Below are positions 19,653-58,835 of a stretch of 64,000 nt of DNA, piece after piece. The stretch lies in contig OV121088.1 of the NCBI GenBank assembly GCA_921293015.1, positions 5,951,882 to 6,015,881 on the forward strand, given 5' to 3'. Source of the stretch: Phorcus lineatus. Lineage: Eukaryota > Mollusca > Gastropoda > Trochida > Trochidae. The notes below the pieces were generated by a model. The model was given only the letters and a program-made list of their open reading frames with translations, did no database searches and was not told the DNA's origin. Position numbers and translations under genes: made by a program. The number at the start of each line of letters is the position of its first letter. Positions within the stretch are counted from its first letter, which is position 1.

Positions 19653-19684
<32 letters not shown>

Positions 19685-20311: not shown

Positions 20312-23300
20312 ATGAAGTGGTTCAATGTCTTTAACGTCTATCAATCCCTTATTTGGATATCCGTCTATGGGAAAGTTTTGAATGAAGGATTAAGTTATAA
20401 TCCATTGGGGATCTCAATGTGTCGCTTAAAGTGTCTGGATGAGGAAGGGTGTTCGTCCTACAAGTTTTCCACGCCCAAGCTACAGTGCTGTCTGACCAGG
20501 AAATGCACAGATGGGGCCAGATTTACAGTGTTCAGTGTCACGAAGGTATCTCAATTACATTTTTAAATAATTTTGGGCCTATTCTCCCAACTCTTTGGTA
20601 GCTTTATATTTGCCCTGCTTGCATTATGGTTTTGAATTTGACTAGATTCATCAGCTCCTTTTAAGTAACAAAACTTGCAATTGTTGAATGAATATTGATA
20701 ACACAGTATTGAAAAGACGTAAATAGTAAGTAAATTCAATGGTAACTATTAATTATATTTACATAAATGTATTTACAACAAAAATGTTGTACTTGTTTAT
20801 AGATGGAGGAACAGCTAGATTTTTATCCCCATGATACTCAGACAAAATTTGCAGCAATTTCAAAGTATTCATTTTTTCACATTATTCTTAACTAAATCTT
20901 TACAAAAGCATCTTATTCAAGGTAATTCGTGCAACTAATACCCAATCATCTCAGGCCGTTGCGTTGCTCATATGTTAGGAAATGGTAAAATTAAAATTAT
21001 TTCATTTAAATACAACTACAAAATTGACCCATTCCGTAATATGATAGCTTTTTCTCTGCAGGAGGACAGGGATCTGACACAGCACAGACAATGTCCAAAG
21101 GAAACACAGAAGATAAAAACAAGGAGGAAGAAAAACATCTGTGTGCCATGTAGGTAACCAACCCGTATCTATTTGATTAGTTAACACATTTGAATTGTGT
21201 TTGTGGGGTCACTCCTACACCAGAAGCAAACTCATGCATTCATTCGCCCACAAGATTATTTAATAACAATTCCACTTGCTTATTTCTTTTTGTATTTACT
21301 GCGCATCTTTTTAAATTTTTACCGCATTTTTTAATTGGAACCCTTTCCCTGCATTAACATGTACTTGCGACATAAATAACCCTCTTCTGTGAAATCTTAA
21401 TATTGCTTGACAATGGTAAATGTGTTAAAAACTACTTGAAAATGTTAAAATGGTAAGAGAGAAATTTTTTTTATAATAAACATAAAATTCTCTTCAAATA
21501 ATAGATTCAATTGATGTTGAGTCCCTCTTTTTTTGGCCTCAAAAGCAAGCTTCCGGCTACTTCTGAATCTTGTTTTAAATATTTCAATATGACGTTAATA
21601 ATCACAGTTGTTTCTTAAAGGGCCTTTAATAGTTTTGAAGTGATCCTGAATCACAATAACAATCTTAACAGAACGTTGTAAGTCATGATTCAAAGTTTAA
21701 TGTGATGTTTAACTAAACACCTTCCTTTACTGTTAATTCGCCGTGGGCCTATATCCACATAACATATATTATGTGCAAATGAAAACCTCGTTCGTTTAAG
21801 GAAGAAGAATATCTAATATACCTTAAATTAAAGTTAATCAACACCCGATACCAACATTAACAACATAACCACAAACAGCATTATTATACTTCAAACATTA
21901 TAGTCATTATAGGATTATAGTCAAACATCATAATATTTTGAATAATATGTTTGAGGAGTGACATTGTCATAGTGGCTTTTTCAACATAGTAGGGGACGTG
22001 AAAAAAGACATTGCTAAAAATTACTTAAAAATTACTGTAGGGCTTCAATTCAGGGTTAAATATAATGCATCACAAAAATTACACCTGAAGGGTCTGTTGA
22101 AGAGCATCAGTTCATCAAACCAAGATACTTAACACTGCTAAAATGTGCATTGTGAACATTTAACGCAAAATTATAATGTATCCATACTTATAAACACTCT
22201 AAAGAGAATACGTTTCGTCATGAAATAGCTTTGTTCCCAAAATAAATCAACACTTGAAGACATCACACCAAAACCCGTAATTTCGTTGGTAAGCAATACT
22301 ACAAAGTTTGATTGTAGTTCTTTATTCTAGTAGTAAAATAATAATATTAACAGCTTTGTGTAAAACCATCCGTGAACGATCAAAACCACATATTGGATAA
22401 TTACTTTGAAGGAATAAAACTTCAATGCAGGCTATTTATCGTATTGGTTGAGCCACGAATTGATAAAGTCACGAATGATTTTACTATACAAACGATTGCA
22501 ACAGGATATTTGCATATGTTTTGCATAATTTCATGCAAATCAAATAAGGAACATTTTATAATTTCGAATATCATGATAATTCATCATTTGGTAGGAACCT
22601 CCTCTGAATATTTGCAATTCAAGTGCAAGCAGCGCGACAGATATATATGCATATAGACATTGTTACATGGTGGTAATGTTTGTTTTTAATTCAGAATTTT
22701 CCTCTATTTAATTAATTGGAATTATTTATTCAAAATCAATAGTATCTTCAATTCATGATCGTAAACTTAATTATTCAGCTGAATGTAAATAACAACCACT
22801 CAACCCTGCAATAAATCTGATTTTATGAAAGAGTTAATCAAACCCTGTGTATCCATCTCGAGAACAAGCAGTAGATCAATAAAGATTACCTATAATTTTG
22901 TTAACTGATTAAATCAAGCATAAGCCATTTTGAAAAGTATATATAAATCATCAGCTTCTCAACACAAGTACATGTCTTTTTGCAGTTGTTATGAGGCGTC
23001 CGCAGAATCCATACGGCAGAATCCTTATTTCAAATGGTGCAAGAGGATTAGCACAAGTTGACCTAAACAGTCTGAAAATTGAACAATACCACGTCAAGAT
23101 TGATGGATCGATCGTCAATATGGTTTTCTCCTTCAATTTACTTTATGTGATTAACAATGAAGGGCAATCATTTGTTGTGCAACTAGCGCATAACTGGACC
23201 CGCCCTCGGCTAAGGGCCAAATATGTTACTGCAGTGGATGTTGATCGAAAGACAAGAAGGATTTATCTTACATTAAAGGAAATGAAAGGAAATAGCATAT

Positions 23301-23740
23301 GCTTATACGACTATGGAACATGTGGCAAAATAACAAATGTTCACCATGGGATTGTAAATATCGGTGTGGACTGGAAACGCCAAAACATATTTGTAAGAGA
23401 TATGAATAAGATATATGGAGTCAAGAAAAGAGGTGAAAAATTTCATGTAACTAAATTAAATTTCGGCAATGGAAAATGTCTTGAAGTAGACCCTGATGCT
23501 AGATATCTGTTCTTTGAAGATGGTAGAAATCTTAAGAGGTTTGACATTGAACATAAGAAAGCCATGTTGATCAAACAAGTCCCTTTACATGTTGAGGTTC
23601 TTCTTCATGATTCTAAGACCTTGTACGTGATTCAGAGAGGTTTCATTGTCTCATATTTAGACAAAGACAACTATGCAGAGAAGAGGAAAGTAAAGGTCGA
23701 TGCTAATGAAATAATTCCTAAGGCCTGTCTAATGCGATAA
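20312..23740 (+). CDS. Secreted PAN/apple-like + six-repeat beta-propeller protein, gene A1
   Basis: I do not recognise this as a named gene. Exons are 20312-20545 (78 codons), 21062-21149 (88 nt) and 22986-23740 (755 nt), with GT/AG introns and matching phases, giving about 358 residues. Residues 1-20 are a hydrophobic signal peptide. Residues 30-70 have a PAN-like cysteine pattern (MCRLKCLDEEGCSSYKF, then QCCLTRKC). Exon 2 is a basic linker with KTRR (residues 97-100) flanked by single cysteines. Exon 3 divides into six repeats of about 40 residues, each with a hydrophobic strand and a turn (GRILISNG, LLYVINNEG, RRIYLTLK, QNIFVRDMNKIYGV, RYLFFEDGRNLKRFDI, TLYVIQRG), resembling degenerate LDLR class B/YWTD blades; the length fits one complete six-bladed propeller. 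The start is the ATG at 20,312, the equivalent of the start in A2 and B2. It is likely secreted; the function is unknown. Confidence 0.85.
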
Positions 23741-26241
23741 TTTTACATGGTTTTAGATATTGTTCATATATCCATTGAGACAAACTTCGTTTTATTCAGT
23801 AAGTAAAGGTAGATTACCACTTTTCAAATATGGTAATCTTTTTAAATCAGAGTTTTTGAAAGATTTGTCTGTTTTGTTGTCAGGCCATGCATGATTTGCA
23901 GAGGTTTTGCTTTTTGGTCACTCTGTTTCAGAAAAGTATACAGCATACTAACGATTTTTTAAAGTATATCATGTTTTACACGTTTTGACCAATAAAATGA
24001 AATGTTATAAAATGGGGACATATGCCATTATATTTCGCAATATTATATCTTATTGTTGTCATTTCGAAACGAAGTCAAGAGAGAAAAAAGGAAGGTAATA
24101 ATATAGACTTTGAATTCTATATTTTATAATTCTAAGTTTCGACAAATTGTTGGTCAAGAAACACAGGGTTAGTGGATACAGGGTATCGCAATCATGTTGT
24201 CTGTCTTGGTTGAAAATTATCTCAATACTACCTTTGAAACTGAATGCGACTTATAGGTATAGGTAAATGAGGTTGAATTTCGCTGTAAAAGGTCATCTTG
24301 GCCACATCAACGAATTACCGCCACACTGCATGAAGAGTGGAATCAGAATCTAAGAGATTTCATAGACCTATCAAATCCTTGTTGAATTGATAATAAGAAG
24401 TATTGTATGAAAGGGTATTCATATAATAACTTTAACGTCACCGGGCGGGCTTTCAGATAGAAAAGCGCGAGTTGCAATCGTGTTTGTTAACTCTTATCGT
24501 ATACATGTGAATGATCACCTTCTTACCCCTGAATATATCATGATATATCAATCGCGGTTAAGCAATACATTCTAAGAAAAATTACTTTAGCGTTTCCTTT
24601 TTGTTTGGAAGTGGATATAACCTGTAAACCTTTATCAACCAACTTTTTTTTTAAAATAGAAAAGTTTGATTAAATTTGGCTACTTGTCTGGTCAAGTTTT
24701 TCTTGATATCGAACAATCAGTACTTCAAATTGACACAAATGACTAAGTTTATATAATTTTATTTCAACAACATACTGTAGTGAATAGTATAGTAAATTGA
24801 CTTTGGTTTTGATTGTTAATTTGAGCAAAGTTTTCTTTTGCTTGTTCTATTATTGACCCCAAATAAGACTCGACGGTTTTCCAGAAAAAATGCAATTGGA
24901 ACCTATACATCAAAATATAGAAAGTCGTAAATGCTTGATATAATCTAGTGTCTTTAAGAATGTATATTACATTAATAATAGATACAAAATAGTAATAACA
25001 AAACTTACTGAGTTATGTGCAAACCATAGAGAAAACAAGTTAACTTATGATGAGACGTTAACTTACGATCTAAAATTCCCAATGAAATGATCCTGCATAT
25101 TGACTACACAAACAGATAACATGACAGCTTAGAAGCACAGTTGTATAGGGAACACAATGATACAAACCATGTCTACAATTGACAGAAAGAAAGCTGTGCA
25201 CCTATGTCTAAGGAAAATGAAGCATAATAGTATGATAGATATGAAGGAGGAATGTGGAACTTTACATTCGGAAAAACTATTGAATGGTGTCCCTGCTCAA
25301 AATTTGCTTTGAATTTTTTTAATAATAGAATTTCAAAAGTCTTCCTAAAACATTTTGCCATATATATATTTTATATTTGTATATATTTTAATTTCCTCAT
25401 CACGTGTGAAGAACACTCAAACGTATCACAATTGGAATAAAGAAGAAATTACAATTCTTTAACATTATTTCGAAACATCCTTCCAAAACGTTTGTGGAAA
25501 AAAGATTAACCTCATAAAATACACTCTTCAAAAAACGCGAATACATATACACTTTTACATGTATAAAAGAAATGTGAGTTAGGCAATCGGGGCCGATTAG
25601 GAAAAGGCCACTTTAATCACCCAAAGCTTAATCCCTCTTAAATAGTGCATTGTGCGTTAATCAAGTTAACCATTTGGCAACTGATGATTGATTAAAGTCT
25701 ATCGTACATTCTAACAGCTTTAACAGTGTGTACCTATATTTGTTATATTGTAAAAGCTTCACATTGTGGAAAATTATATACATATTTCAAGCCACGTAAA
25801 TAGTAGAAATGTACTGAAAACAGTCACATGTATTTTTTTCATAACTGTTTTAAAAGAGATTTGAGTTTCACTTTAACCATTAGTACACACATAGCAGGAA
25901 TACTTTTAGACATTGTTTAACTGCTAATCGTAATAAAAGTTTACCAATTTAGTTTTGATTGATTCGTGTAAAAATCACTGTTTAATTGTTTTAGACATCC
26001 GAGCTATAGAGACTAAAAGTTTATAAATGTATAAATTTGAAATATGAACTTATCGTTTCTCATAATTTAGAAAAAGCTTTTTAGAAATTATCTAAATCAA
26101 ACTCTTAAAAGGTTATTTGTTGATAGCAAATGCATTAACTTTATCTCAGATATAATCAAGAAACAACAAAATTGTTAGTACTTATCAAATGGTCATTGTT
26201 AAAGCAATAGATTTTGAATTTTAATATATTACACTGTATCG
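23741..26241. other. Intergenic between genes A1 and A2
   Basis: AT-rich and non-coding. About 22,755-24,811, which includes A1 exon 3 and its 3' flank, is absent from copy B; the rest (24,811-26,241) matches B. The short frames at 25,173-25,440 lie in non-coding sequence and are not conserved as proteins. Confidence 0.5.
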
Positions 26242-34505
<8,264 letters not shown>

Positions 34506-35269
34506 TGTTTCAAGGTTGAGAATTTATTCTTCGTGACAGGATTCGCGTTTTATTCCGTCAAGAAAAGTATTTAATCGCTTACGCTTGCTTTTATGAGTAT
34601 GTTGGGAAAAACTCACATATGTAAAAATATTGCTTTTTAAAAAAAGATCTAAAATTTATTATGCCAGTTTTACTAAGGGGATCACCAAAATGTTTTTCCA
34701 CAAGTAAAGCACAAAATCAATAAAATCATGAAAATATCAAATGACTATATAATTCCATTGCTGTTTATCATACTCTCATTACACTTTCACTATCATTTTA
34801 TAAATTTTGAAATGAATATATGATAGTTCTGCCAAATGTGTAATAAAAGATTTATTAACATAAACGATTTTTTTTGGATAGAAATGTATTAAGTTTTTAA
34901 TAGCATATCAATATTCCTCAAAGGAGAATGTTATAAAAAGGAATCGCTTATCAATGACAAGTAACTGTATATATTTCAACGTGTTTTGAGGTTGCGAAAA
35001 TTGATATTGATGTGAGTTGAAGGATGTTTATCAATGATATTCATGACACTACTGAGGCTTCATGACTCTAAGAATTGAAACATTATTCCGTTTTTTTTGG
35101 AAAATGTCGTTGTCCCACGTTTCATCGTCTTTTTATATCTGATCTTCTCTAATGAGGGTATCACATATACTTGAATTCAAATTTTTATTTCTCTCTATAA
35201 TAGTATAGCAGAGACATGTCAAGATGACCATATTAGACTACTTCTGTTCTGGCATTTTCAGCCTGTCGT
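34506..35269. other. 3' flank of gene A2
   Basis: Non-coding. It is nearly identical to the 3' flank of B2 (53,820 onwards), except for a short indel near 34,570 and a gap at about 34,703, where copy B has some 460 extra bases. A homologous but more diverged sequence follows copy C (about 60,730-61,600). Confidence 0.6.
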
Positions 35270-35552
35270 GGGGGAAGGATAGCGCAGTGGTTAGCGCATT
35301 CGGCTTCGGATCAAGAGGTCCGTGGTTCAAATCCCGCCAGGGGATCAGCAACTTTGTCTGCAGTAGAGAACTGATCTACACGCAGTCAGGTTTGGTAGCA
35401 ATGCTACACTGAATTTCAGCGCAGTGCCACCCATGGTTCGCTAGTTTCAGCAGGTTTCACATAGCCATGATATTGGGGGCTTTCTCCCTGCAATGATACT
35501 AGCAGGCGCGATATAAGTGAAAAACTCTTGAAAGCTGCGTTGAACCCCGCCG
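35270..35552 (+). mobile_element. tRNA-headed SINE, long form (copy A)
   Basis: The head carries an A box (TAGCGCAGTGGTTAGCGC) and a B box (GGTTCAAATCC, with one change from GGTTCGAATCC). The body includes GTCTGCAGTAGAGAACTGAT, TACACTGAATTTCAGCGCAG, ACCCATGGTTCGCTAG and GGGCTTTCTCCCTGCAATGA, then TATAAGTGAAAAACTC. It is about 50 bp longer than the 39,265 copy, because it keeps the block CTGATCTACACGCAGTCAGG. Its copy-B partner is at 55,026-55,306, so it was inserted before the duplication. Confidence 0.85.
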
Positions 35553-36117
35553 TATTTAAATTATATCAATGTAACATATCAAACGATGTATAATCTGTTA
35601 AATCCAAATAATGCTGATGTCATCAAATTTGTTGCAATTTTTAAAAAACAAGTTATGTCCATTTTAATATCGAGTTAAACTTTTATCTTCGCACTGCCGA
35701 GAGATGCGTACTCATCAATATAGATGGCTTACTAACAAATTGTAGAAACTCAACGCTTGGGCAGGTAAACGTATCACAGCCTGTAACCTCTTATGAAAAG
35801 AGGTTTAATATTGATATTGTCGCTTGTTCATTGACTGAAAGATTTGGTTTGCAAATCATTTATAATTGACGTTATTTTACATCAAATCCACGTGACTTTG
35901 CACCAGAAGTAAGGTTCCATGATTCCCCTTTTTACACATTTTTCAAAATGAGTGAATACTTGATTTAAGAGACGTTTTTTAAGCATCCAATATATTTGAT
36001 TTAAGACTCTGAATTAAAAATTTACTGTTAATATGTTGATTCATCATATTTTTCATAGTTTTAGTTACTTATTTATGACAAGATGATAGCCAAAATTAAA
36101 ATAACTTTGACCTCCAT

Positions 36118-36195
36118 CCAGTTCTACCCATGGTTCGGTAGTTCCCATTGTTGCCTGCACGCAAATCCACCATGCATAGCCATAATACAGGTCCT
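36118..36195 (+). repeat. SINE internal fragment (copy A)
   Basis: CTACCCATGGTTCGGTAGTT and CATGCATAGCCATAATACAG match the middle of the tRNA-SINE without head or tail. The partner is at 55,946-56,023. Confidence 0.5.
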
Positions 36196-36600
36196 AACAA
36201 ACAATCAGAAAGTATCATTAGGAAATCGAAATCGAAATCGAAATTACATCAAAATAAACAATGAAATACAAATATTGCCTTATTGACAATAATAAGGAAA
36301 AGTTATTTTTGCTTTTGTTAAATTATTCATAATGAATGATATATTCAGATATGGCCTTTCTTCGTATTTGATTTACAATTAGGAGATAAATATACTGTGT
36401 TTGGAAATCAGAGGCATATAATGGAATTATAATAGCTCTAAATTTAATTTAAAGTCGAACACAAATCTAGCAGACCATAAGCAAACACAGTATATGACAG
36501 ACCAGTTTGTCGTTTTGACTTAGTTCCCTTGATATTAAAGGCTTCTCAAAGAGAAGGAAAGGAAAGTTCCCTTTAAATCTCCTGTTGGCTATTACACTTA

Positions 36601-39216: not shown

Positions 39217-39264
39217 GATGTGCTTAGATTCATTCCATGTTGATGGTTTGCTCGCAATGTAAAG

Positions 39265-42920: not shown

Positions 42921-43002
42921 TATGTATGAAGTATGTAAGTATGTATGTATGTATGTATGTATGTATGTATGTATGTATGTATGTATGTATGTATGTATGT
43001 AT
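42921..43002 (+). repeat. (TATG)n microsatellite
   Basis: About 16 pure TATG units after a degenerate start. It explains the MYVCMYVC peptide frame here, which is not a gene. Confidence 0.97.
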
Positions 43003-43572
43003 ATTGGAACTGTCCTATTCCAAGTTTGATGATATGAGGGATATAAATAATTTAATATGCAAAAGAAATATCAAAATCATAGCCAGCACTTTATTCGATA
43101 TAATTGTGTTCATTAATGTTCAACAAAAGAACGATATGACATTTTTGTACCATTGTTTAAGATATTTTGAAGATTAAAATCCACTTTTTTATAAATCTCG
43201 GGCCATATCATTAAAAGAATTGTGCTTTAATCAGTTAAAAAGTTTGAATAAAGTATCATAGAATGAAATGTTTATCATTAAAATGTGACATCTCTGTATA
43301 CCACTTTAGTTTTGAATTGATTTGTTTTAACTCAACTGAAGTAAAAGCTTTTAAATGAATAAATATTGAAATCAGGAGCTAATCATTGCATATCATTAAA
43401 CAGAAGCAGAAGAAAGATAATATTTAGTCATTTATTCTGTAGAAAATAGAAATTTTTATCTAAAGATACCAAAGTACGAATTACTTATCCATGAACATTT
43501 CTTGTCATTGTAACTTTTGAATACACAGAGATTTTACCATTTCTTAATTTTGACACCTATAATGTATTGAAG

Positions 43573-44384
43573 ATGAAGTTTTTGAAAATGTTTTTAACAT
43601 GCATCAATCCCTTATTTGGATATCCGTCTATGGGATAGATTTGAATGAAGGAGTAAGTTTTAATCCATTGGGGATCTTGATGTGTCGCTCAAAGTGTCTG
43701 GATGAGGAAGGGTGTAGGTCCTACAAGTTTTCCATAACAAAGCTTCAGTGCTGTCTGACCAGGAAATGCACATATGGGGCCAGATTTACAGTGTTCAGTG
43801 TCACGAAGGTATTTCAATTGCATTTTAAAATAATTTTGGGCCTATTCTCCCAACTCTTTGGTTGCTTTATATATGCCCTGTTTGCATTATGGTTTTGAAT
43901 TCGACTAGATTCCTTTAAAGTAACAATACTTGCAATTGTTAAATGAATATTGATAACACAATATGAAAAGACGTAAATAGTAAGTAAATTAAATGGTAAC
44001 CATTAATTATATTTACATTAATGTATTTACAACAAAATGTTGTACTTGTTTATAGATGGAGGAACACCTAGATTTTTATCCCCATGATACTCAGACAAAA
44101 TTTGCAGCAATTTCAAAGTATTCATTTTTTTCACATTATTCTTAACTAAATCTAAGGGAATTCGTGCAACTAATACCCAATCATCTCAGGTCGTTGCGTT
44201 GTTCATATGTTAGGAAATGGTAAAATTGAAATCATTTCATTTAAATAGAACTACAAAATTGACCCATTCCATGATATGATAGTTTTTTCTCTGCAGGAGG
44301 ACAGGGGTCTGACACATCACATACAATGTCCAAAGGAAACACAGAAGATAAAAACAAGGAGGAAGAAAAACATCTGTGTGTCAT
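43573..44384 (+). pseudogene. PAN/propeller family gene B1, propeller exon deleted
   Basis: Counterpart of gene A1. Exon 1 runs 43573-43808. The usual ATG (43,573) is followed by a net +2 change near 43,595, so the signal peptide is out of frame with the PAN block; the in-frame ATG at 43,599 leaves MHQSLIWISVYG as a shortened signal-like start. The PAN block itself is open (MCRSKCLDEEGCRSYKF, QCCLTRKC). Exon 2 (44297-44384, 88 nt) is intact, with QCPKETQKIKTRRKKN and a GT donor. Exon 3 is absent: the segment matching 22,755-24,811 of copy A is missing at about 45,773. As it stands, the gene has no propeller. Splicing from exon 2 onto B2 exon 3 at 53,065 would be in phase, but that is speculation. 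Confidence 0.75.
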
Positions 44385-47300
44385 GTAGGTAACAAATCCG
44401 TATCTGTTTGGTTAGTTAACACAGTTAAATTGTGTTTGACATTCTTTAGCCAACACGATTATTTGATAACAATTCCTCCTGCTTATTTTTTTTTTATTTA
44501 CTGCGCATTTGTTTATGATTTTTAACGCCTCTATTAATGTGAACCCTTTACCTGCATTACCATGTACTTGTGACACAAATAACCCTTATCTGTGAAGTCT
44601 TAATATTGCATGACAATGGTAAATATGTTAAAAACTATCTGAAAAATGTTGAAATGGTAAGAGAGAAGTTTTATTTTATAAAAAAACATAAGATTCTCTT
44701 CATATAATATATTCAATTGATGTTGAGTCCCTTTTTATTTTTGCCTCAAATGCAAGCTTCTGGCTACTTCTGAATCTTGTTTTAAATATTTCAGTATGAT
44801 GTTAATGATTACAGTTGTTTCTTAAAAGGACCTTTAATAGTTTTGAAATGATCCTTAATCACAATAACAATCTAAACAAAATGTTGAAAGTCATTATTTA
44901 AAGTTTAATGGGATTTTTAATTAAACACCTTCCTTAAGGCATTGTTAATTCGCCCTGGGCCTGTATCCACATAACATATTATGTGCAAATGAAAACCTCG
45001 TTGGTTTAAGGAAGTAGAAGATCTTAAATGAAAGTTAATCAACACCCCATATCAACATTAACAACATAACCACAAACAGCATTTTTATACTTTTGAAGAT
45101 TATGGTCAAACATCATAACATTTTGAATGATATGTTTGGGGAGTGACATTGTCATAGTGACTTTTTCAACATATTAGGGGACGTGAAAAAAAGACTAAAA
45201 ATTACATAAAAAATACTGTAGGGTTTCAATTAAAGATAAAATATGCATCACAAAGATTACACTTGAAGGGTCTGTTGAAGAGCATCAGTTCATCAAACCA
45301 AGATACTAAACACTGCACAAATGTGGATTGTGAACATTTAATGCAAAATTATAATGTATTCATACTTATAAACACTCTTAAGAGAATCAATAAAATAATA
45401 TAATAATATTAATAGCATTGTGTATAAACATTCGTGACGAAGAATGATAAAAACCACAAATTGGATAATTACTTTGAAGGAATAAAACTTAAATGCAGGC
45501 TATTTATCGTATTTGTTGAACCCCGAATTGATAAAGTCACGAATGACCTTACTATACAAACGATTGCGACAGGATAATTGAATATTTTTTGCATAATTTC
45601 ATGCAAATCAAAAAAGGAACATTTTAATTTCGAATATCATGATAATTCATCATTTGGTATTCATATAGTCATTGTAACATGGTGGTAATTTTTGTTATAG
45701 ATTAAGAATTTTCCTCCATTTAATTGATTGGAATTATTCATTTATAATCAAAAGTATATTCAATAGATGATTGTTAATTTGAGCAAAGTTCTCTTTTACT
45801 TTTTCTATAACTGACCCCAACTAAGACTCAACAGTTTTCCAGAGAAAATGCAATTGGAACCTTTACATCAAAATATAGAAAGTCGTAACAGTGCTTGATA
45901 TAATCTAGTGTATTTAAGAAAGTATACACCCCTCTATATTATTTTAATAATAGATATAAAAAATAGTAGTAACAAAACTTACTGAGTCATGTTCAAACCA
46001 AAGAAAAAAGAAGTTAACTTATGATGAGACGTTAACATACGATCTAAATTTCCCCATGAAATGATCCTGCATATTGAATACACAAACGGATAACATGACA
46101 TCTTAGAAGCACAGTTGTATTAGGAACACAATTATACAAACTATGTCTCCAATTGAGAGAAAGAAAAAGCTGTGTATCTATGTCTAAGGAAACTGAAGCA
46201 TAAGAGTATGATAGATATGAAGGAGGAATATGGAAACAGCTTCATAACTTTACATTCGGAAAAAACTATTGAATGGTGTCCCTGCTTAAAATTTGCTTTG
46301 AATTGTTTTTAATAATAAGATTTCAGAAGTCTTCCTCAAACAGTTTACCATTTCATCGGAAGTTCTTAGTCTCCCATTTTGTTGAGTCTTATAAATAGTC
46401 TGAAAAGGCTTATTTAGATCTGAAATTCGATCGATATGAAAAAGGTTATGTACAGACTTTTCCAGTTTTCCATAACCAGGGGATAATATCTTTTGGTCGA
46501 CTATGTTGGAGAAGTTAAACCAATGGGATGCTAGATAGCCCTGAGGTTGCGCCATAACAGTACTGATATAAATCGTTTACTAGGTTGCTTTTCAGCCAAT
46601 TTTACTTATAACATGGCATTATCCTTAAACTGTAAATTTGTAAAATTAGATAACAAAAAGCCTGAGCTTGACAATAAGCTGTTTTGAATAAACATAAATT
46701 TCATCAATGCAAGATATATTTATGTATATTGTTATGTGTATGCACCCAAACCATATCACTGGTCTGAGTATGCACCGTAACTTGGTTCACTCACTGCCAA
46801 GGCCCAAATTAGTCTACCGTAGAACTATGGTTTGATCACTCTATGCACATGAATAGCACTTTCCTAAATTTTTTCATTGCTGAAGGCCCAGTCATGTTCC
46901 ACATACGTCCTTGGTAAGGTAGAAAGATATAAAATGTACATAGTAAGTCATTTTTCTACACAACCTGTTTAACCTTAACAACGTTATGATAACAACAACA
47001 AACAGGTCGGGAGAAGAAGGATCTACTTTCAAAACCTGCTACAGCCTTAGCTTCAAAACATGTTCTCTGAAAGTAAATTACTTTGCAAAATCAGTTATTT
47101 ACCATGCTTAAGTTACACCTATAGAAAAATTAAACAAATTTTGGCCTCATAGAAACAGAATTCTAAACAAAGCAGAACAAGCATTAATCATCTTTCAACA
47201 ACTCCATTAAAAACAATGCTACTAAACATCTGACAACTGAAGGAGGATAAATTCAACTTCACAGTCAGTTATCAGCCAGGCCGGTTAAACGATATTCAAA

Positions 47301-48763
47301 CACAAGCTAAAGATGCAGCCTTTGCATACACGAAAAAATGCATAATAATCTGTAAAATCTAGGTGGCATCCCTGTATTTGGAACAAATTCGAAATCAAAA
47401 CCTACAATCGGATGAGTTTTCTATTGTAGAGTTTATCTGAAGACTTATCATAATCCGATGATCATCACCGTTCCAACACAAGTTTATGTTTTAAACATAT
47501 TTTATTCATTACAAAGGGAATGCCGCTCCAATACAAATTATATTTTGAAACCATCAAACATTAAACACAAAGTTATGACAAACCAATACGATGTACAGTT
47601 GCAACACAATAAGGTTAAGATATTCAATATTGCAAAGGCAATTTCTTCACGCTAATTTAGAGAGAACAAAAATCCAACTCATTTCTTATCAAATCTAAAA
47701 GAATTGGTGATAAAAAGGTAAATAGATTGTGGAAGAGCCAATTTGTCAATATCAGATAACTCTTTATATTTCCATATAAAATTGTTTTTTAAACTGTATA
47801 CATTGTTGTAGAATAAGGCTCCATTTCTTATCCAAATGACTTTCCAAGCCTAGAGGTTATTTTCTCAGTAAATATTTTCTGGTATATATTTTAATTAATA
47901 TATATTTAATTTCCTCATCACGTGTGAAGAACACTCAACAGTATCACAATTGGAATAAAGAAGGAATTACAATTCTTTAACATTATTTCGAAACATCCTT
48001 CCAAAACTTTTGTGGAAAAGAGATTAACCTCATTAAAAACACTCTTCAAAACGCGAATACATATACTCTTAGAAATTACATGTATAAAAGAAATGTGAGT
48101 TTGGCAATCGGGACCGACTAGGAAAAGGCCACCCAAATCTTAATTCCTCTTAAATAGTGCATTGTGCGTTAATCAAGTTAACCATTTGGCAACTGATGAT
48201 TTATTAAAGTATATTGTACATTATAACAGCGTTAACACTGTGTACCTATATTTGGTATATTGGGAAAGCTACACATTGTTGAAAATTATATACAAATTTC
48301 AAGCCACGTAAATAGTAGAAATGTACTAAAAACAGTCAAATGTATTTTTTTCATAAATGTTTAGAGATTCACTTTAACCATCAGTACAAACGTGTGGTTG
48401 CCAAGCTCCATTAGCCGGAATGCTTTTAGACATTGTTTAACTGCTAATCTTAATAAAAGTTTACCAATTTAGTTTTGGATTGATTCGTATAAAAGTCACT
48501 GATAAATTGTTTAAGACGTCCGAGCTATAGAGACTAAAAGCTTATAAAGGTATAAATTTGAAATATGGCCATAACGTTTCTGATAATTTAGAAAAACCTT
48601 TTTAGAAATCATCTAAATGAAAGCTCTTATAAGGTCATTTGTAGATAGCAAAGGCATTAACTTCATCTCAGATATAAACAAGACACAACAAAATTGTTAG
48701 TCCTTTTCAAATGGTCATTGTTAAAGCAATAGCTTTTGAATTTTAATATATTACACTGTATCG
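44385..48763. other. Remains of B1 intron 2 and intergenic to B2
   Basis: AT-rich and collinear with copy A except for the deletion at about 45,773 and the insertion at 46,351-47,895. The frames at 47,458-47,655 and 47,918-48,136 show no family resemblance. No gene is supported. Confidence 0.5.
46351..47895. mobile_element. ~1.5-kb insertion found only in copy B, unidentified
   Basis: Copy A runs from CTTCCTAAAACATTTTGCC straight to TATATTTTAATTTCCTCATC (25,342-25,400). Copy B has about 1.5 kb between these points. The minus-strand frame 46,555-46,286 starts inside it, and near 47,250-47,320 a plus-strand frame (NFTVSYQPGRLND) recalls the RNase H end of Ty3/Gypsy polyproteins. I found no LTRs or clear target duplication. 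It is probably a decayed retroelement piece, but the class is uncertain. Confidence 0.45.
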
Positions 48764-51700
48764 ATGATGATGTGGTTCCTTTTTTTAAATGTCTGTCAAC
48801 CCCTTTTTTGGATGGTCTTCTGTGGGAAAGTTTTGAAACCAGGATTTAGTTTTAATCCATATGGGATCTTGATGTGTCGCTCCAAGTGTCTGGATGAGGA
48901 AGGTTGTTGGTCCTACAAGTACTCCACGACCAAGCTACAGTGTTGTCTGACTAGGAAGTGCTCGTATCAGAACGGATTTACGGAGTTCAGTGTCAGTAAG
49001 GTATGTAAGTTAAACATTCTAATCATGTGGGGATTATTATAACATCTTTGTCTGTATATTCCAATAGCTCAATGTTTTATGATTAAAATGAGTGAATTAG
49101 TTGGGGTTTGAAGTGTTTTGAACAATATTTCAGTAATTATACACGTATGATTAAAATGAACAATACATACATACTCATAAAATAGGAAACACATGGGAAT
49201 GTTTTATCTGAAAATGCACAGAATAATTTCAAACAGATTATTTGAAAACAATTCTCATCTGAATCTTGATATAAACGTTTTTTTAAAGTAAAGTCCTTTC
49301 AAAGAAAAGCATTAAGGGTTGTTAATTTGATATGATACTTCACATGTTTGGGAATGCTTTAGTCAAAGTCATTTCGTTGCCGTGCAACCTTTTAAATAGT
49401 TAACTCATTTTAATAATACAACTTATCTTGTCAGGTTGACAGAGCTCGGACACAGCACAACCGATGTCCACATGAAACTAAGAAGATAAGAACAAAGAGA
49501 ATGGAAAATCTCTGTGTTTCACGTGAGTAATAATTTTATATCTATTTGATTAGTTGTTAGTTTTCAATTTGGCAGTGGATTTTTTAAAGGGTAGCTCGGG
49601 TCAAAACAAACAGGTAAGCATCTCATACATCCACACAGTTATTAACAGAAGTTCTAATAGGAAATGCTAACTAGTTTATTTGTTTCATTCACAAGGCATT
49701 AGTTTATTATCAACCAGCCCCTATTAATTTGAAATTATTTGAAATGCATACACATGTATTTAATGCATGAATTCACCTCGACTGTAAAGTTTTAACAGGG
49801 CAGTGATAGATATATTTCCAAATTTCTGAAAGATGATGACATGGCAAACAAACATTTTAACATAAAATGCTCAAAAACTAAGAAAACGAGTTGATATTGA
49901 AAAAAATGTACCTCCGTACGATTACGGCTCATAGGTATGCTGTAAGCTGTCCTTGTATATTGGTCATACACTAATAAGATAAGTGACACAATAATTAATT
50001 AAATGCCACAGATGAATACAATCTATTTATTCAGGAGTCGTGGTATTTCAAAACTTTTGGATTCCGTTTGCAAAGATCTAGAAATATGATTTTACAACAG
50101 AGATGGGAAAACCTGTTTAATTTTGCTACAATCATAAAAATAATGTAAGGTAATCAGCATTATTTCAGGAATTTATAGCAAATACCGAACAAAGGAAAGG
50201 CAGCGATCATCACTGTATTAAGTAAAGGTAAAATACTGGTATGCATCAGATTTAAGATTATTTTCTTGGCCAACTGACTGAGAATTCGATCAGAGTACCA
50301 GGGCCGATATTCACAAAACTTCTAAGAATTTTCTTAGGCCTTAAGAATTCTTAAATCCACTTAGAATTCTTAGTTTCCGTGACAACGTTCTTAACTTTTA
50401 AGAAATTTCTTTGTACTTTCTACTTGGATTTTTTCTTAACTTAAAGTGACCTCATGAGGACACTTAACACCTTAAAAAAATTCTTAAAACAAATAAAATG
50501 GCCGCCAGCAGATACTATGCCTTCCTCACTGAAAACTTTTCAATGTTTTTGTAGGCTTACAAATGAGTAAGCCTCAATGAGATGGTTAATTTTGTCTGTT
50601 ATACACTTGTGACAGAATATCAATCATAATTTATTGTTTGAAATATACCTTGAAATCAATTTGACAGTGACAAATGATTTCAAATAATTCGCAAATGAAT
50701 CCAGCCTCAATAACTTACTATTCAGACTTGTCATTTGTTTTGGACCAAATGACAATATGATCACATGGCATTGCTAACATTTCTTCTGCTAAGCCTATTG
50801 ACACTTTCTTGAGATGCTTCCCTGGTCCTTGATTTAAAATGAAATTTAAAAAAAGCTACATAATGTATGAAAAGTTTGACAGGTACGTGATTGTACACAC
50901 TGATACGTTTATTCAAAACAACCGGGCTCATTACAATCACTTTTCTCCATTTCGGGATTAGTAAGGAACATGAGTTGACAGATTAGAGTTATTCCCCATC
51001 TGGTGCTGTTGAAAATCTGAATCAATATTAAAATGATATTGATTTATTTATTTTGGTTAACTTATATTGATCAGGTGTATATATATTTGTGTATAACTTC
51101 ATATTTGTTGTGATGTATTTGAGAAATTAAATTCAATTGTTTATTATGAAATCTATGCACAAATACGAATATTTTACATGTTAATGAATTGATGGAGAAA
51201 AACTTATTTCATACTAATTGAATTTATTTGAAATCGACACCTTATTATTCTCATATGCAATCTTTTCACAATTTCACAATTGTTAACTTTTCCGCATCAA
51301 AAGATATTTCAGAATACATCCTGAAAACAATGCTCAAGCTAATGTTTTTCCTAATTCTAAATGTATATTTATCATTCTATTAGGAAACTTAAAAGCAATC
51401 AAGAAAGGATCCAGGAAGTGATGTTTATTAGCCATATGTAACTTGTATTGTTGAGATATTTCAAAATTCTACATTGTAAAATAAAAATTATTTAAAAAGA
51501 TTTCAATGTACATAAAGGATTTCAAAGTTTTGTATTATTTTGCAATCAATATTTGCATATATTTGCAAATATAACTATATCTATCTATAATGTATATAAA
51601 CTAACCCACTAGAATGTTGAAGAATAAAAGCTTTAATCTCGTCCAAACAATGGGCAAGCAATGATGACTTTAACATATTGTCACTTGAAGGGTTACATAT

Positions 51701-53819
51701 AGATTATATATTTTTGAAAATCTTAGATTTTTTACAAATATGCATTTTACATATGAAAAAACTATATATTCTTTTCTTACTGACAATAATACAAACCAAT
51801 TAACCATTGATACATTTATTCCTCTTTAGTTGAATGGTTAAATAAAAATATAGGCGTTCCAATAAATTTTGAAATATTATTATTCATAAGTTATTTTTAA
51901 TTTTATCACTGAAAAAGAACCTTGATTTGAAAAATGATGCAAGAGGATATATGATTAAATTTAATGGCTTGTTCGTCTTTCTTTGCGTTTTCTTACCTTT
52001 TTAGCAAGGAGAGCAAACATCCGTTGCTATAAATAGATTAGGGGATTTCCATTATGTCATGAAATAAACTCTTATAACAGTGTTTTTTCAGGTACTACTC
52101 TTCCCAGAATGCAAGTTGTTTTCTTCTTAGTTAATTCTAAGAATTTTAACAATTATTCTGCTAAGAATGTTTCTTAAGAGGATATTTAAGACATTTCTTA
52201 AAGTTGAGAATTCTTAAAGAATCTCAAGTATAAAAGTATCAAAAATCCTAAGAACTTTTGTGAATACCGGCCTTGCACACTGGCTTCTGTGGGAATTTGA
52301 GATATGTGATTCAAAACGGCTTTGAATAGGCAATAATTTGGAGTGGCAACCATCAAAGTAGTCAACATATTTCAAGCACTGTACATCGCCTAAGGGAATT
52401 TGTGTCTTCTCGTAACACTAAAAGTGGTCTATCTCGTTATACATATGGTTTATAATATCATACAATAAATCATAAAGGGGGGATTTTCCTCTCAAGTACA
52501 TGGACCAGTAATTTTATGACATTATATATCAACACGTTTGTAATTAGGGTAAAGGAGGCACGCACAGTGACTCTTTCAAAGTATATTTTCAAGTTTTTAT
52601 CGACCTTTTTATTTAAGGAAAAAGAATTGTCGATAAGTAAAAAAGCTATTTCAGACCTGTGGCACTCGGGGATAACAGAATGGGGGGCTATGTCAGCCAT
52701 GCTCCTTTTTTCTTGTGTGATTGTGTGTGGATGAAGAATCAATCTGGTCATTGTCACATACCGATAAATGTGTGTTTCTGGAGTGATCTAAGTCAGAGAT
52801 GTATTTCTATCAATTGATGGAAATTATTTCATAAGTTTTATGGCCAGTGATTCTTTGTGTTCAATACGATCAACAAACTGTATTAATTTAATATAAATGG
52901 CCGCTATGCAAAACCTGTCAAAAACATGAATGATTTTACAAGATCGGAGGATGTCCCATTTCGGAAACAAGTAGATGATCATTGGAGACTTCATGATTTT
53001 TCTTATGATTCAGTTCTTATATCAGTGAATATGAAAACTTCAATTCTGATTTGTTTCTTTGCAGATGGTTCAAGACACCCAAAGACTCAATACAGCAGAA
53101 TAATGATCGCAAAGCGTCCAGGATTTAAAGAAGTGGACTTAAACAGCCTGACCATTGAACAATACAAGGTCAACACTAACGGATTGGTCAAAGCTATGGT
53201 TCACTCCTCAATATCAAAGGTTATATATGCTATTAACTATAAAGGGGAACTGTTTGTCGTGCAACTACAGCAAAATACGACAACCCCCCTCTTAAGGTCA
53301 ATTTTTATTACTGGAATGGATATTGATACAAAAAGAAATATACTTTATCTTTCTTTTAAGGAGGAAAATAAATATTTCATATGCCAATACAATGATGCAA
53401 TTTGTCATAAACTAACAGATTTCCAATACGAGATTGTTAATATCGGTGTTGATTGGAGACGACAAAACATTTTTGTGAGAGGTGTTCATAAGATATACAG
53501 AGTCAATAAAAATATTGAAAAGTTTATAGTAGCGAAACTTCGTTTCGGCAATTGTAAATGTCTTGAAGTGGATCCTGATGCCAGATATTTGTTCTTTGAA
53601 GATGGTAAAAATCTTATGAGATTTGACATTGAACATATGAAATCTTCTTTGATCAAAATTATGTTTAAAAAGATTTTTGTTCTTCTTCATGATTCCAAGA
53701 CTTTGTACATCATTATGAGGGAAACTATTGTGTTGTGTTTAGACAAAGATAGTTACGAAGTAAAAAGGAGACTAAAAGTTGGTGTAAGGTTATTCCCGAA
53801 GGCTTGTCTTATGGGGTAG
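48764..53819 (+). CDS. Secreted PAN/apple-like + six-repeat beta-propeller protein, gene B2
   Basis: Partner of A2. Exons are 48764-49000 (79 codons), 49435-49522 (88 nt) and 53065-53819 (755 nt), the same lengths and phases, giving about 359 residues. The signal peptide (MMMWFLFLNVCQPLFWMVF) is followed by the PAN-like block (MCRSKCLDEEGCWSYKY, QCCLTRKC), a linker with the furin motif RTKR (residues 98-101), and the six-repeat propeller (NIGVDWRRQNIFVRG, CLEVDPDARYLFFEDGKN, LLHDSKTLYIIMRE). The frame also opens upstream to 52,926, but that part is intron sequence: the acceptor TTTCTTTGCAG is at 53,054-53,064 and the same intron in A2 is not open. Intron 2 is 3.5 kb, without the LINEs of A2. 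Compared with A2, exon 3 has no indel but many amino-acid changes. Confidence 0.85.
50302..52272. mobile_element. ~1.97-kb TIR-bounded element in B2 intron 2
   Basis: The left end is GGCCGATATTCACAAAACTT and the right end, in reverse, is GGCCGGTATTCACAAAAGTT, continuing TCT(A/T)AG-type for about 30 bp. Subterminal AATTCTTAAG motifs occur on both sides. No transposase frame is visible. It was present before the segmental duplication, since copy A has it at 27,778-31,190. A 165-bp stretch at about 51,965-52,128 is missing from copy A. Confidence 0.65.
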
Positions 53820-55025
53820 TGTTTCAAGGTTGAGAATTTATTCTTCGTGACAGGATTCGCGTTTTATTCCGTCAAGAAAAAGTACGCTTGCTTTTATGAG
53901 TATGTTGGGAAAAACTCACATATGTAAAAATATTGCTTTTTAAAAAAAGATCTAAAATTTATTATGCCAGTTTTACTAAGGGGATCACCAAAATGTTTTT
54001 CCACTTAGAATAAAGCCAGCAGTAGTTTTATCCAGTGTGAATGTAATACTGTTGTCCTGTCATTTAATGAATGAAGATACTATCAAACTAAAATGACAAC
54101 ATAAAGGTTTATTTTTAGTTGTTATGACAAGGAATTTTGATAGCATTGTTCATTGATTCGATGAGAACGCATTTGTTTAAAATCTTCTTCCAACATACTG
54201 CTCATAATGTGAAGTTTTCTTTCTTTTCCTGCTTTCGTTTTACTCCTTAATCAAGAATTTTGCTATGTTTTATGAAAACAAAATTGAAATTATCAATTTT
54301 AGAATTTTTAGTTAAAATCAAACGATTATTCATGATAGAAATGAAACACAGTAGTGTAGTTAATTGATACTAGACAATACTGATGGTTAAACTCCATAAA
54401 ACCTATAACGAGATTCGACAAAATTTATTGCATTGTGATATTTTGATTGTGTATTACAAAGTTAAGCACAACATCAATAAAATCATGAAAATATCAAATG
54501 ACTATATAATTCCATTGCTGTTTATCATACTCTCATTACACTTTCACTATCATTTTATAAATTTTGAAATGAATATATGATAGTTCTGCCAAATGTGTAA
54601 TAAAAGATTTATTAACATAAACGATTTTTTTGGATAGAAATGTATTAAGTTTTTAATAGCATATCAATATTCCTCAAAGGAGAATGTTATAAAAAGGAAT
54701 CGCTTATCAATGACAGGTAACTGTATATATTTCAACGTGTTTTGAGGTTGCGAAAATTGATATTGATGTGAGTTGAAGGATGTTTATCAATGATATTCAT
54801 GACACTACTGAGGCTTCATGACTCTAAGAATTGAAACATTATTCCGGTTTTTTTGGAAAATGTCGTTGTCCCACGTTTCATCGTCTTTTGATATCTGATC
54901 TTCTCTAATGAGGGTATCACATATACTTGACTTCAAATTTGTATTTCTCTCTATAATAGTATAGCAGAGACATGTCAAGATGACCATATTAGACTACTTC
55001 TGTTCTGGCATTTTCAGCCTGTCGT

Positions 55026-55306
55026 GGGGGCAGGATAGCGCAGTGGTTAGCGCATTCGGCTTCGGATCAAGAGGTCCCTGGTTCGAATCCCGCCAGGGGA
55101 TCAGCAACTTTGTCTGCAGTAGAGAACTGATCTACACGCAGTCAGGTTTGGTAGCAATGCTACACTGAATTTCAGCGCAGTGCCACCCATGGTTCGCTAG
55201 TTTCAGCAGGTTTAATAGCCATGATATTGGGGGCTTTCTCCTTGCAATGATACTAGCAGGCGCGATATAAGTGAAAAACTCTTGAAAGCTGCGTCGAACC
55301 CCGCCG
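55026..55306 (+). mobile_element. tRNA-headed SINE, long form (copy B)
   Basis: Partner of 35,270-35,552. A box TAGCGCAGTGGTTAGCGC, intact B box GGTTCGAATCC, and the same long body, including CTGATCTACACGCAGTCAGG. Confidence 0.85.
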
Positions 55307-55435
55307 TATTTAAATTACATCAATGTAACATATCAAACGATGTATAATCTGTTAAATTCAAATAATGCTGATGTCATCAAATTTGTTGCAATTTTTAAAA
55401 ATTTTAAAATATCGAGTTAAACTTTTATCTTCGCA

Positions 55436-55523
55436 CGTGATCAAAGTCTGTCATGATGTAACTGCAATTGTACTTTGGGCCACTGGGGCTTCAATATTGA
55501 ATAAACCTGTCTGTCTGTCTGTC
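55436..55523 (+). mobile_element. Short LINE-tail insertion ending in (TGTC)n, copy B only
   Basis: Copy A reads TTCGCACTGCCGAGAG where copy B has 88 extra bases ending AATAAACCTGTCTGTCTGTC. An AATAAA followed by a tetranucleotide tail is the usual 3' end of a severely truncated LINE insertion. Confidence 0.6.
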
Positions 55524-55945
55524 TGCCGAGAGATGCGTACTCATCAATATAGATGGCTTACTAACAAATTGTAGAAACTCAACGCGTGGGCAGGTAAACG
55601 TATCACAGCTTGTAACCTCTTATGAAAAGAGGTTTAATATTGATATTGTCGCTTGTTCATTGACTGAAAGATTTGGTTTGCAAATCATTTATAATTGACG
55701 TTATTTTACATCAATCCACGTGACTTTGCACCAGAAGTAAGGTTCCATGATTCCCCTTTTTACACATTTTTCAAAATGAGTGAATACTTGATTTAAGAGA
55801 CGTTTTTTAACCATCAAATTTATTTGATTTAAGACTCTGAATTAAAAATTTACTGCTAGTATGTTGATTCATCATATTTTTCATAGTTTTAGTTACTTAT
55901 TTATGACAAGATGATAGCCAAAATTAAAATAACTTTGACCTCCAT

Positions 55946-56023
55946 CCAGTTCTACCCATGGTTCGGTAGTTCCCATTGTTGCCTGCACGCAAATCCACCA
56001 TGCATAGCCATAATACAGGTCCT
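55946..56023 (+). repeat. SINE internal fragment (copy B)
   Basis: Partner of 36,118-36,195, essentially identical. Confidence 0.5.
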
Positions 56024-56423
56024 AACAAACAATCAGAAAGTATCATTAGGAAATCGAAATCGAAATTACATCAAAATAAACAATGAAATACAAATATTGC
56101 CTTATTGACAATAATAAGGAAAAGTTATTTTTGCTTTTGTTAAATTATTCATAATGAATGATATATTCAGATATGGCATTTCTTCGTATTTGATTTACAA
56201 TTAGGAGATAAATATACTGTGTTTGGAAATCAGAGGCATATAATGGAATTATAATAGCTCTAAATTTAATTTAAAGTCGAACACAAATCTAGCAGACCAT
56301 AAGCAAACACAGTATATGACAAACGAGTTTGTCGTTTGGACTTAGTTCCCTTGATATTAAAGGCTTCTCAAAGAGAAGGAAAGGAAAGTTCCCTTTAAAT
56401 CTCCTGTTGGCTATTACACTTAA

Positions 56424-57289
56424 CAACTTCATTCAACTTAGAAAAGGTACATCTGTATGCCTGTAACAGATTTTTGGGTGTTAAACAATACACTCCGAGT
56501 GTCATGATTTATGGAGAATGTGGCTGGTTTCCTTTATATATCTATTCCTATTGCAAAGTAATTCGGTATTGGATAAAACTATTATACATGCCATCATACA
56601 GCCTACCAAAGCAATGCTATAATATGATGCTTTTATTTGATCGAAATGGACATAAAAACTGGGTGTCAGATGTAAAGAAACTATTGTTTTCAACTGGTTT
56701 TGGAAATATTTGGCACAACCAGGAAACTGGAATATATCCCGAATTCGTAAAATCATTTACTCAAAGACTAAAAAATATGTTTTTTCAAAATTGGCAAGAA
56801 AAATATTAACTTCAAGCAAATACAACACCTACGTCATGTTTACAGCATTATCAGTACCGAACACTACCTATCTTGTTTGAATTTTAAAAAGTATAGAATC
56901 AGCCTCGCACGTTTTAGATGTTCTTCGCATGAACTGTTTATTGAGAAAGGCAGATATCTAAATATAAGGAGAGAACATAGACTCTGCCAATATTGCCAGT
57001 CAAATGAAATTGAAAATGAATACCATTTTTTACTTTTATGTCCTATTTCCAGTAACATTCGAAACAAATACATCAAAGAAAAATACTATGTACACCCAAA
57101 TATGTTTAAATTCTCCAAACTTTTAAACAGTTTAGATAATAAAGAAATTGAAAACCTGTCCATGTATATATTTAACGCATCTGTATCGAGAAACCGAATT
57201 GTTTTATAAATGTGAAATATGTATCAACAAATGTAAATGTAATGTGGCCTGAGGCCTTCTGAGTGCTGAATAAAAGATTGATTGATTGA
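56424..57289 (+). mobile_element. CR1/jockey-like LINE 3' fragment, complete 3' end
   Basis: It reads LEKVHLYACNRFLGV, TPSVMIYGECGWFPLYI, LPKQCYNMMLLFDRNG and FGNIWHNQETG, then, after a frameshift in an A-run near 56,805, EHYLSCLNFKKYRISLARF, CSSHELFIEKGRYLNI, a zinc knuckle (CQYCQSNEIENEYHFLLLC) and a stop at 57,209. The 3' UTR ends AATAAAAG followed by ATTGATTGATTG. The reverse transcriptase is missing (5' truncation). The right edge of the segmental duplication (56,838) lies inside it. Its 3' end abuts the exon 2 relic of copy C. Confidence 0.88.
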
Positions 57290-57300
57290 ACAACTTCAAC

Positions 57301-58835
57301 TAACGTTTCTCTCCACGAGAGACACGGATGACAATAACAAATAACATGACAAAGCTCTGTGTTTTATGTAAGTGACTAGTCTGTTTTCAATTGATTTGTT
57401 AGTCTAGATTACAATCTGGCAATGAATTATTCCTGCAGACAGATCCAATAAAAGATGAACACAAACTGCACTAACACATAAAGACACAGAATGAATTACA
57501 AATTTATTACCTGTTTTTTGTTTATTTTCATAATTCACTACAAACCATTAAGAAATGCATACATAAAAGTGACATGATTCCAAAGTTTCTTAAAAGTGCA
57601 AAAAATAATGAAACAATAGTTTATCAAACAAATAACACAATTCATGAAGATCTATGCACGTTTTTTGTCATAATGAGCTGGGAATTTATTTCTATTGTCA
57701 TTGTAAGAAAGTCGTAAATTTGTGTTTGAAATTTAAAGACATATCAATTCCTATCACCCAACAAGGCAGTTATCTTGGGTAAATATTTTTGACATATTAA
57801 TGACATTCATGTCATATTAACGGTATTTCAATCGCTCTTATGGAGCTCTTATTTGGAACTCGCATCATAGAAAAATACGTAATGGACAATCTTAAAATTT
57901 CATCCATTAAATCAAAGGAATGTTTTATATCAACTACATTCACAGGTTCTATAAATTCAGTAGTACAACTGTATTCAAATCTCGATATTAAGATTCATGC
58001 CATGGTCGGTCTTATATAAGCTTTATAATTCTTTTGATTGATTGATTTGAGTGGCAGCTATTAAATTAACAATAACTTTAAGTTTAGAATTTCAGAAATA
58101 ACTTGTGTCTTTGCAGCTGCTTTGAAACAACCAAGGAATACACACAGAAGAATGATGATCTCAAAGAATAGAAGAGGATTAGACTTAAAAAATCTTACCA
58201 TAGAACAATATACGGTCAACATACAGGGATCAATTAAGGCTATGTTATACTCATCAAAATCAAAGGTCATTTACATGATAAATTTTAGAGGAGAACTGTT
58301 TGCTTTGAAACTGGAGCAGCACAAGAAAACACCCCTGCTTAGGTCCAAATTTGTCACTGGAATGGACATTGATTAAAAAACAAGTAAACTTTATCTTTCT
58401 CTAAAAGATAGGACTAATAATGTGATATGCCTGTTTAACAATGCAGCGTGTCATAAGATATCTAAATTGTGCTGTAAAGTTATTGTTTTAGCTGTCGACT
58501 GGAGACAACAAAACATTTTTGCTAGGGGGTTAGATATGATATATGGAACATCTAAAAGTAGTGAAAAGTTTCGTATAACGAAGTCTAGCATTACCTATCG
58601 AAAGTGTCTTGAAGTAGACCCCCATGGAATGTATCTATTTTTTGAAATTGGGAAAAAGGTTATGAGATATGATATTAAACACAAGGACACTAAGTTGATC
58701 AAAACATTTTCTCGCCCTGTTGATGTTCTTCGTCATGACTCTCAGAATTTGTATGTAATTGAAAGAGGTTTTCTGTTGTTATGTTATGACAAAGATAGCT
58801 ACAAACCGAAGCTGAATTTTACAGTAAGACCTTGA
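57301..58835 (+). pseudogene. PAN/propeller family copy C, stop codon in the propeller exon
   Basis: The exon 2 remnant lies at about 57,301-57,367 and keeps a good donor (TTTTAT|GTAAGT) in phase 1, but it lost its 5' part and acceptor next to the LINE. Exon 3 starts at 58,117 after TTTGCAG and runs to 58,835, in phase. It reads LKQPRNTHRRMMISKN, TIEQYTVNIQGSIKAMLYSS and VTGMDID, then a TAA at 58,374-58,376, and continues in the same frame through AVDWRQQNIFARGLDMIYG, CLEVDPHGMYLFFEIGKK and LRHDSQNLYVIERG to the end. The single stop is the only break in the exon. No exon 1 was found. It is clearly more diverged than A2 and B2 are from each other, so it is an older copy and probably recently silenced. 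Confidence 0.85.

Follow-up and report, generated by a model that had tools for sequence, protein, structure and literature searches.

What kind of protein is encoded by the short three-exon genes that recur in the genome of the gastropod Phorcus lineatus (957.8 Mb in 74 contigs) is the question raised by the 64,000-nucleotide stretch of contig C13 analyzed here (C13:5951882-6015881, hereafter the window). A first-pass annotation of this stretch had proposed an unnamed gene family in which a leader and a PAN-like cysteine module are joined through a basic linker to a propeller of six repeats carried whole on one exon. Following analysis of the locus and its relatives, we lean with some reserve towards a lineage-expanded family of secreted proteins that combine a PAN-like module with a diverged YWTD propeller and that would serve in ligand recognition, perhaps of an immune kind. 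The combination had been put forward as undescribed, and no description of it was found in the literature searched, most subscription journals lying outside the coverage, while the component kinds are known; the family joins two modules with known relatives and is therefore not categorically new, its novelty being their combination.

Exon-by-exon reading recovered three intact genes in the window, A1, B1 and B2, all on the plus strand and 358, 359 and 359 codons long, which bears out the three open copies of one plan that had been reported. A1 consists of exon 1 (20312..20545) with a leader, hydrophobic by eye, and the PAN-like cysteine module (PAN_4 with an expectation value (E) of 0.022 and PAN_1 with E 0.16, both below the Pfam cut-off), exon 2 (21062..21149), a basic linker with two conserved cysteines, and exon 3 (22986..23740), the propeller, in which both strand-turn-strand stretches quoted at first were located. 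The corresponding exons lie at 26242..26478, 26940..27027 and 33751..34505 in B1, the copy used for the structure model, and at 48764..49000, 49435..49522 and 53065..53819 in B2. Exon 1 measures 234 or 237 nt, exon 2 88 nt and exon 3 755 nt in these genes, and the introns start with GT, end with AG and are in phases 0 and 1. A protein search of the genome with exon 3 of B1 returned 16 places (E <= 0.001), and at least 12 intact members with a common three-exon plan and identical intron phases were found on three contigs, all genome-wide counts being lower bounds: nine genes were modelled outside the window, five on C13 to its right, three on C41 and one on C17. The exon sizes claimed as constant hold for the three window genes and vary beyond them, exon 2 having 88 nt in 10 of the 12 members but 79 nt in the other two, with exon 3 ranging from 755 to 779 nt.

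Pairwise identity among the 12 members extends from 40 to 87% in exon 1, from 35 to 100% in exon 2 and from 34 to 88% in exon 3, where its median within the genome is 45%, and splice sites and cysteines are conserved. The ratio of nonsynonymous to synonymous substitution rates (dN/dS), determined by a simple counting method for the 12 intact genes, lies between 0.41 and 0.72 in all 66 pairs (median 0.53). The exon 1-2 and exon 3 trees agree in their supported pairs and are without resolution in the deeper forks; the two modules have therefore been inherited together at least as far back as the supported pairs. Judged from the predicted genes, the unnamed family is real. The synonymous rate (dS) was lower in exon 3 than in the preceding part for B1-B2 (0.068 vs 0.202 in exon 1) and for G3-G4 (0.107 vs 0.288 in exons 1-2), which was not seen in H1-H2 (0.108 in both parts) or G1-G2 (0.377 and 0.480); exon-3 gene conversion has perhaps taken place in some pairs.

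The first module was compared with Pfam at E 10. For exons 1-2 of the 12 members, only models of the PAN clan were matched, all below the cut-off: PAN_1 in nine members (best E 0.0093), PAN_4 in one (E 0.0041) and PAN_2 in one (E 0.67). The profile check suggested at the outset thus gave a PAN-clan signal below cut-off and neither Ldl_recept_b nor NHL in the 12 members, and no Pfam family scored above cut-off over either part of the three window genes. A homologous first exon at C32:43956812 (L042; E 4.5e-4 to B1 exon 1) passes the PAN_1 cut-off with 22.5 vs 21.4 bits; no propeller was seen behind it in the stretch examined, where reverse-transcriptase-like open reading frames (ORFs) stand instead, by eye. 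Cysteines at B1 positions 38, 42, 48, 60 and 66 are present in all 12 members and that at position 61 in 11 of them, as are, in 12 of 12, positions 90 and 106 in exon 2 and positions 215, 222 and 356 in exon 3. The core spacing CxxxCxxxxxC...CC is shared with the PAN/apple domain (PAN_1, PAN_4), and by eye the conserved exon-1 cysteines may correspond to the PAN core pairs joining helix and hairpin. The family differs from that domain in that all 12 genes stay below the cut-off, the profile is matched in its middle only, and the fold predicted for exon 1 has a predicted local distance difference test score (pLDDT) of 49.6. Taken together with the L042 exon, the assignment of exons 1-2 as PAN-like is supported, at a level below the Pfam cut-off, and the original description of this module is upheld to that extent.

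For exon 3 of B1, AlphaFold2 returned a beta-propeller of 21 strands at modest confidence (mean pLDDT 59.8), so that the outcome named in advance as refuting the original reading, a prediction without a propeller, did not arise. In fold comparison with VIA-align, the best rows for this model were the YWTD propellers of Sevenless/ROS1 and LRP6, with Z differences under 1 that amount to ties. The division into six units of about 40 residues within about 250 residues, made by eye, accords with the arrangement of strands in the model. The six units did not emerge from sequence self-comparison: the score observed at offsets of 30-60 was reached by 24 of 100 column shuffles and that at offsets of 70-100 by 1 of 100, and the 12-row profile gave hhalign self-matches that did not exceed the best shuffle. 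Exon 3 matched other single-exon propellers of the same genome with an hhalign E of 3.7e-12, and this wider group in turn matched LRP2 (E 3.9e-50, a value that sums the numerous propellers of that protein) and LDLR (E 6.5e-5) as well as LRP6 and nidogen in the Protein Data Bank (PDB), the controls for the profile chain to the LRPs being clean. The wider alignment comprised 10 of 12 wider loci, L029 being excluded as short and L034 for a stop in its propeller, and these 12 loci account for 13 of the 14 distant propeller rows (those from E 0.009 on); among the 10, Ldl_recept_b was matched by one (E 0.12) and DUF5050 weakly by two. Because exon 3 matches single-exon propellers that match LRPs and LDLR, it appears, through this two-step profile link, to be a diverged relative of the YWTD (LDLR class B) propellers which has neither the YWTD motif nor the EGF module. 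The absence of the tetrad, remarked on from the beginning, applies to the whole set: neither YWTD nor [YF]W[TS][DE] occurs in any of the 12 family proteins or the 12 wider ORFs, and at the equivalent positions B1 shows, by eye, YAVN, YLSF, FVRD, FFED and YIIE. Furthermore, the B1 reading frame ends 13 residues past the last strand of the model, so that no EGF-like module follows. The resemblance to the propellers of LRP2, LRP4, LRP6, LDLR, nidogen and Sevenless/ROS1 lies in the size and number of the units as judged by eye and from the model, the profile link and the best fold matches. Propellers of the LDLR type are known as components of large receptors and of matrix proteins, whereas here the whole propeller occupies one exon of a small, secreted-looking protein.

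How far this plan reaches in the genome was followed from both ends. The first exon as query gave 74 places at E <= 1, of which 19 were strong (E <= 6e-9; the family and fragments) and 55 distant. Four first-exon loci beyond the 12 genes were opened, and a propeller-like ORF was found in two (L043, L041) and none in the other two (L042, L040). In L043, on C25, an exon with a leader and a PAN module (below the PAN_1 cut-off at E 0.0015) is followed after about 1.2 kb by a 331-residue ORF, of which the last 250 residues look propeller-like; in L041, on C9, the PAN-like exon is accompanied by a propeller-like ORF that is partial, a reading made by eye. No Pfam match at E 1 was obtained for the downstream ORFs of either. 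L040, at C17:11058468, is a near relative of the C17 gene with exon 2 present and no exon 3 found in the stretch examined; a further first exon near that gene lies at C17:10803670. With the L043 propeller as query, 91 matches at E 10 were obtained, many single ones being weak (E 0.01-10), and 59 of the 91 are open frames of at least 400 residues. Pairs of a PAN-like exon and a propeller were first noticed by eye and then counted over these 91 matches, the 14 distant propeller rows and the 55 distant first-exon rows: five of the 55 first exons (L043, one on C29, one on C13 and two neighbours on C9) are followed on their own strand, at a distance of no more than 10 kb, by a propeller-like match. 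Over 2000 random placements, with contigs of unstated length set at 45 Mb, the mean was 0.055 pairs and the maximum 2, and the controls gave one pair upstream on the same strand and none on the opposite strand. Eight long ORFs were opened as well (L024, L026, L027, L028, L030, L031, L033 and L034, the last with a stop in its propeller), and seven of them start with ATG and a hydrophobic leader; the opened ORFs show a stretch resembling a coiled coil and then a YWTD-like propeller, with a Ser/Thr-rich linker between the two in some, all by eye. Since propeller ORFs occur with a coiled coil as well as with a PAN-like exon, the same kind of head is found with two kinds of N-terminal partner, and the PAN-propeller family is probably part of a larger expansion. 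Most of the 59 long frames, single-exon ORFs mainly of 450-560 residues, stand in tandem arrays at C25 28.1-31.5 Mb and at C15 3.0-3.2 and 6.7-6.9 Mb, and shorter frames matched by the propeller query lie at C25 17.7-18.3 Mb.

Following this, we propose that the N-terminus, hydrophobic by eye in the members, would send the protein out of the cell, that the face of the propeller would bind a ligand as YWTD propellers do, and that the PAN-like module, or the coiled coil in the sister architecture, would link or anchor the heads. Conserved cysteines lie near either end of the propeller, at B1 residues 106 and 356, and may serve to close the ring; tandem duplication would have widened the repertoire. 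Repeated duplication with fast divergence fits a recognition role; of such roles we would first suggest an immune one, on the model of the C1q-domain and lectin families that have expanded in bivalves.

Several results weigh against this proposal. The structure model of exon 1 is uninformative at the pLDDT given above, and 50 of the 55 distant first exons are without a paired match. The ORFs of the L043 type are read as propellers on weak hhalign matches, to the wider group with E 6e-4 (Prob 28) and to exon 3 with E 0.1. Moreover, dN/dS in the four closest pairs was 0.44 (0.34-0.63), 0.64 (0.44-1.00), 0.72 (0.47-1.21) and 0.70 (0.41-1.26), and three of these pairs taken alone are compatible with neutrality because their intervals reach 1 or more. 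The rather high values in B1-B2, G3-G4 and H1-H2 (0.64-0.72) would also be in line with a reproductive role of the same proteins, as fast-evolving secreted gamete or egg-coat proteins that duplicate and diverge for species recognition, and an oviduct protein of a snail, predicted to contain two six-blade propellers, has been described (PMC8614816). No positive selection was shown by dN/dS in the four closest pairs. Arrays of related propellers spread over the genome are larger than would be expected of gamete proteins, and we consider the reproductive explanation unlikely, though it is the likeliest of the alternatives.

Somewhat less probable still is a role in the extracellular matrix, mucus, byssus or shell matrix, in which the propeller would bind matrix partners as in nidogen and the number of copies would follow demand. 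In favour of it, the wider propeller group matches nidogen in addition to the LRPs, and exon 2 is basic, with 6-10 Lys+Arg vs 2-5 Asp+Glu in its 26-29 residues. However, matrix genes are usually conserved, and the median exon-3 identity given above was reached within a single genome.

The remaining contrary results concern the fold, and they also serve the case that the propeller is of the WD40 or another type. The B1 model has a low mean pLDDT, and its first 40 residues score below 50. Foldseek, with RACK1 as its top match, returns WD40 and YWTD folds intermingled and does not separate them by itself. For the wider group, the WD-40 repeat protein 2ymu (E 1.1e-13, no stretch being significant alone) ranks above LRP6. 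Exon 3 alone has no stable match in the PDB: LRP2 was matched at E 9e-5 with 3 rows, the best single stretch having E 3.2, and this match was lost with 5 and with 12 rows, while among PDB sequences the 12-row profile matched UTP18 best (E 0.015). In Pfam, four of the 12 members were matched by the NUP159/NUP214 propeller model, at E 7.5e-6 in the best case, and single members by several models of WD type at E below 0.1, whereas no Ldl_recept_b match was found in the 12 members at E 10. On the other hand, the length of about 250 residues and the number of strands in the model fit six units, the best VIA-align rows are YWTD propellers, and the profile chain leads to the LRPs with clean controls. 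A propeller other than the YWTD type is therefore, in our estimate, improbable, and a diverged YWTD head remains the preferred reading.

Intronless TRIM-NHL genes are multiplied in bivalves, and capture of an exon from such a gene could be imagined from the single-exon relatives of 430-550 residues with their coiled-coil-like stretch ahead of the propeller. This origin was rejected as very improbable: RING, B-box and NHL were absent at E 1 or better from all 10 wider ORFs scanned, in seven of the eight long ORFs the initial ATG opens a leader judged hydrophobic by eye, and the group matches LRPs. The only trace of NHL among the 10 trimmed wider propellers was one weak match (E 0.11), and the Pfam scan of the 12 family propellers revealed no NHL repeats, RING or B-box. 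That the genes are decaying fragments without function, as the broken copies (C, A2, remnants and, at 34.05 Mb on C13, J1) might suggest, is hardly credible for 12 intact genes with conserved splice sites and cysteines, and a pure pseudogene cluster was rejected on dN/dS below 1 in 66 of 66 pairs.

With the secreted PAN-propeller family as the preferred reading, a wider claim may be formulated tentatively, as a possibility that we rate below the family itself: a very large undescribed repertoire of secreted single-exon YWTD-like propellers behind exchangeable PAN-like or coiled-coil modules would constitute a diversified recognition system whose size and logic resemble those of the C1q-domain or fibrinogen-related proteins of molluscs, with the window showing one branch. 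What distinguishes these genes is a whole propeller on one exon as head of small, apparently secreted proteins, partnered by a PAN-like exon or a coiled coil and multiplied in tandem. The propeller is not named by Pfam above cut-off in the scanned sequences, and such genes would therefore tend to be filed as uncharacterised. The head folds of C1q-domain and C-type lectin proteins differ from a propeller, and if the recognition role is true, a new head fold would be added to the lectin-like repertoires of these animals. The C1q-domain and C-type lectin expansions of bivalves (PMC6835236, PMC10140915) are likewise expanded families of secreted or recognition proteins. The nearest lead in the literature is a bivalve-enriched orthogroup annotated as 'LDLR class B repeat' (OG272), given in PMC8382680 with 255 genes, 15.1 per bivalve species vs 1.7 per other mollusc; compared by description only, this group may or may not contain the present genes.

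The layout of the window results from a tandem duplication recognized by self-comparison (13119..56838), in which the unit at 13119-37014, about 24 kb long, recurs in head-to-tail order at 37005-56838, the second copy being without the stretch that bears the A exon 3. This accounts for the orphan A2, on the plus strand like the other copies, with exon 1 at 43599..43808, where the first in-frame ATG falls within the leader, and an 88-nt exon 2 at 44297..44384, the matching exon 3 being absent from the second copy. It also accounts for the paired decayed exon-3 remnants at 18384..18748 and, as its duplicate, at 42087..42346 (both plus strand). A further exon-3 copy, C (58117..58835, plus strand), has an in-frame TAA at 58374-58376, and no exon 1 or 2 was found for it within the window. 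Identity between 34702-37014 and 54459-56838, at the end of the duplication, is 96.8-97.7% vs 77-94% in the other aligned pieces, as if this end were younger, homogenised or a separate insertion. The second intron of B1 is long (27028-33750) and holds minus-strand reverse-transcriptase and zf-RVT ORFs, resembling those of a long interspersed nuclear element (LINE), at 29113-33566 (RVT_1 E 4e-25, zf-RVT E 3e-9). The duplication starts, at 13119, shortly after exons of a succinyl-CoA ligase alpha-subunit-like gene on the plus strand (9258-9539, 10226-10447 and 12330-12515; CoA_binding E 2e-10, Ligase_CoA E 7e-14), and inverted repeat arms, each 181 nt long and with 75% complementarity, lie at 35269-35449, 55025-55205 and 62750-62930.

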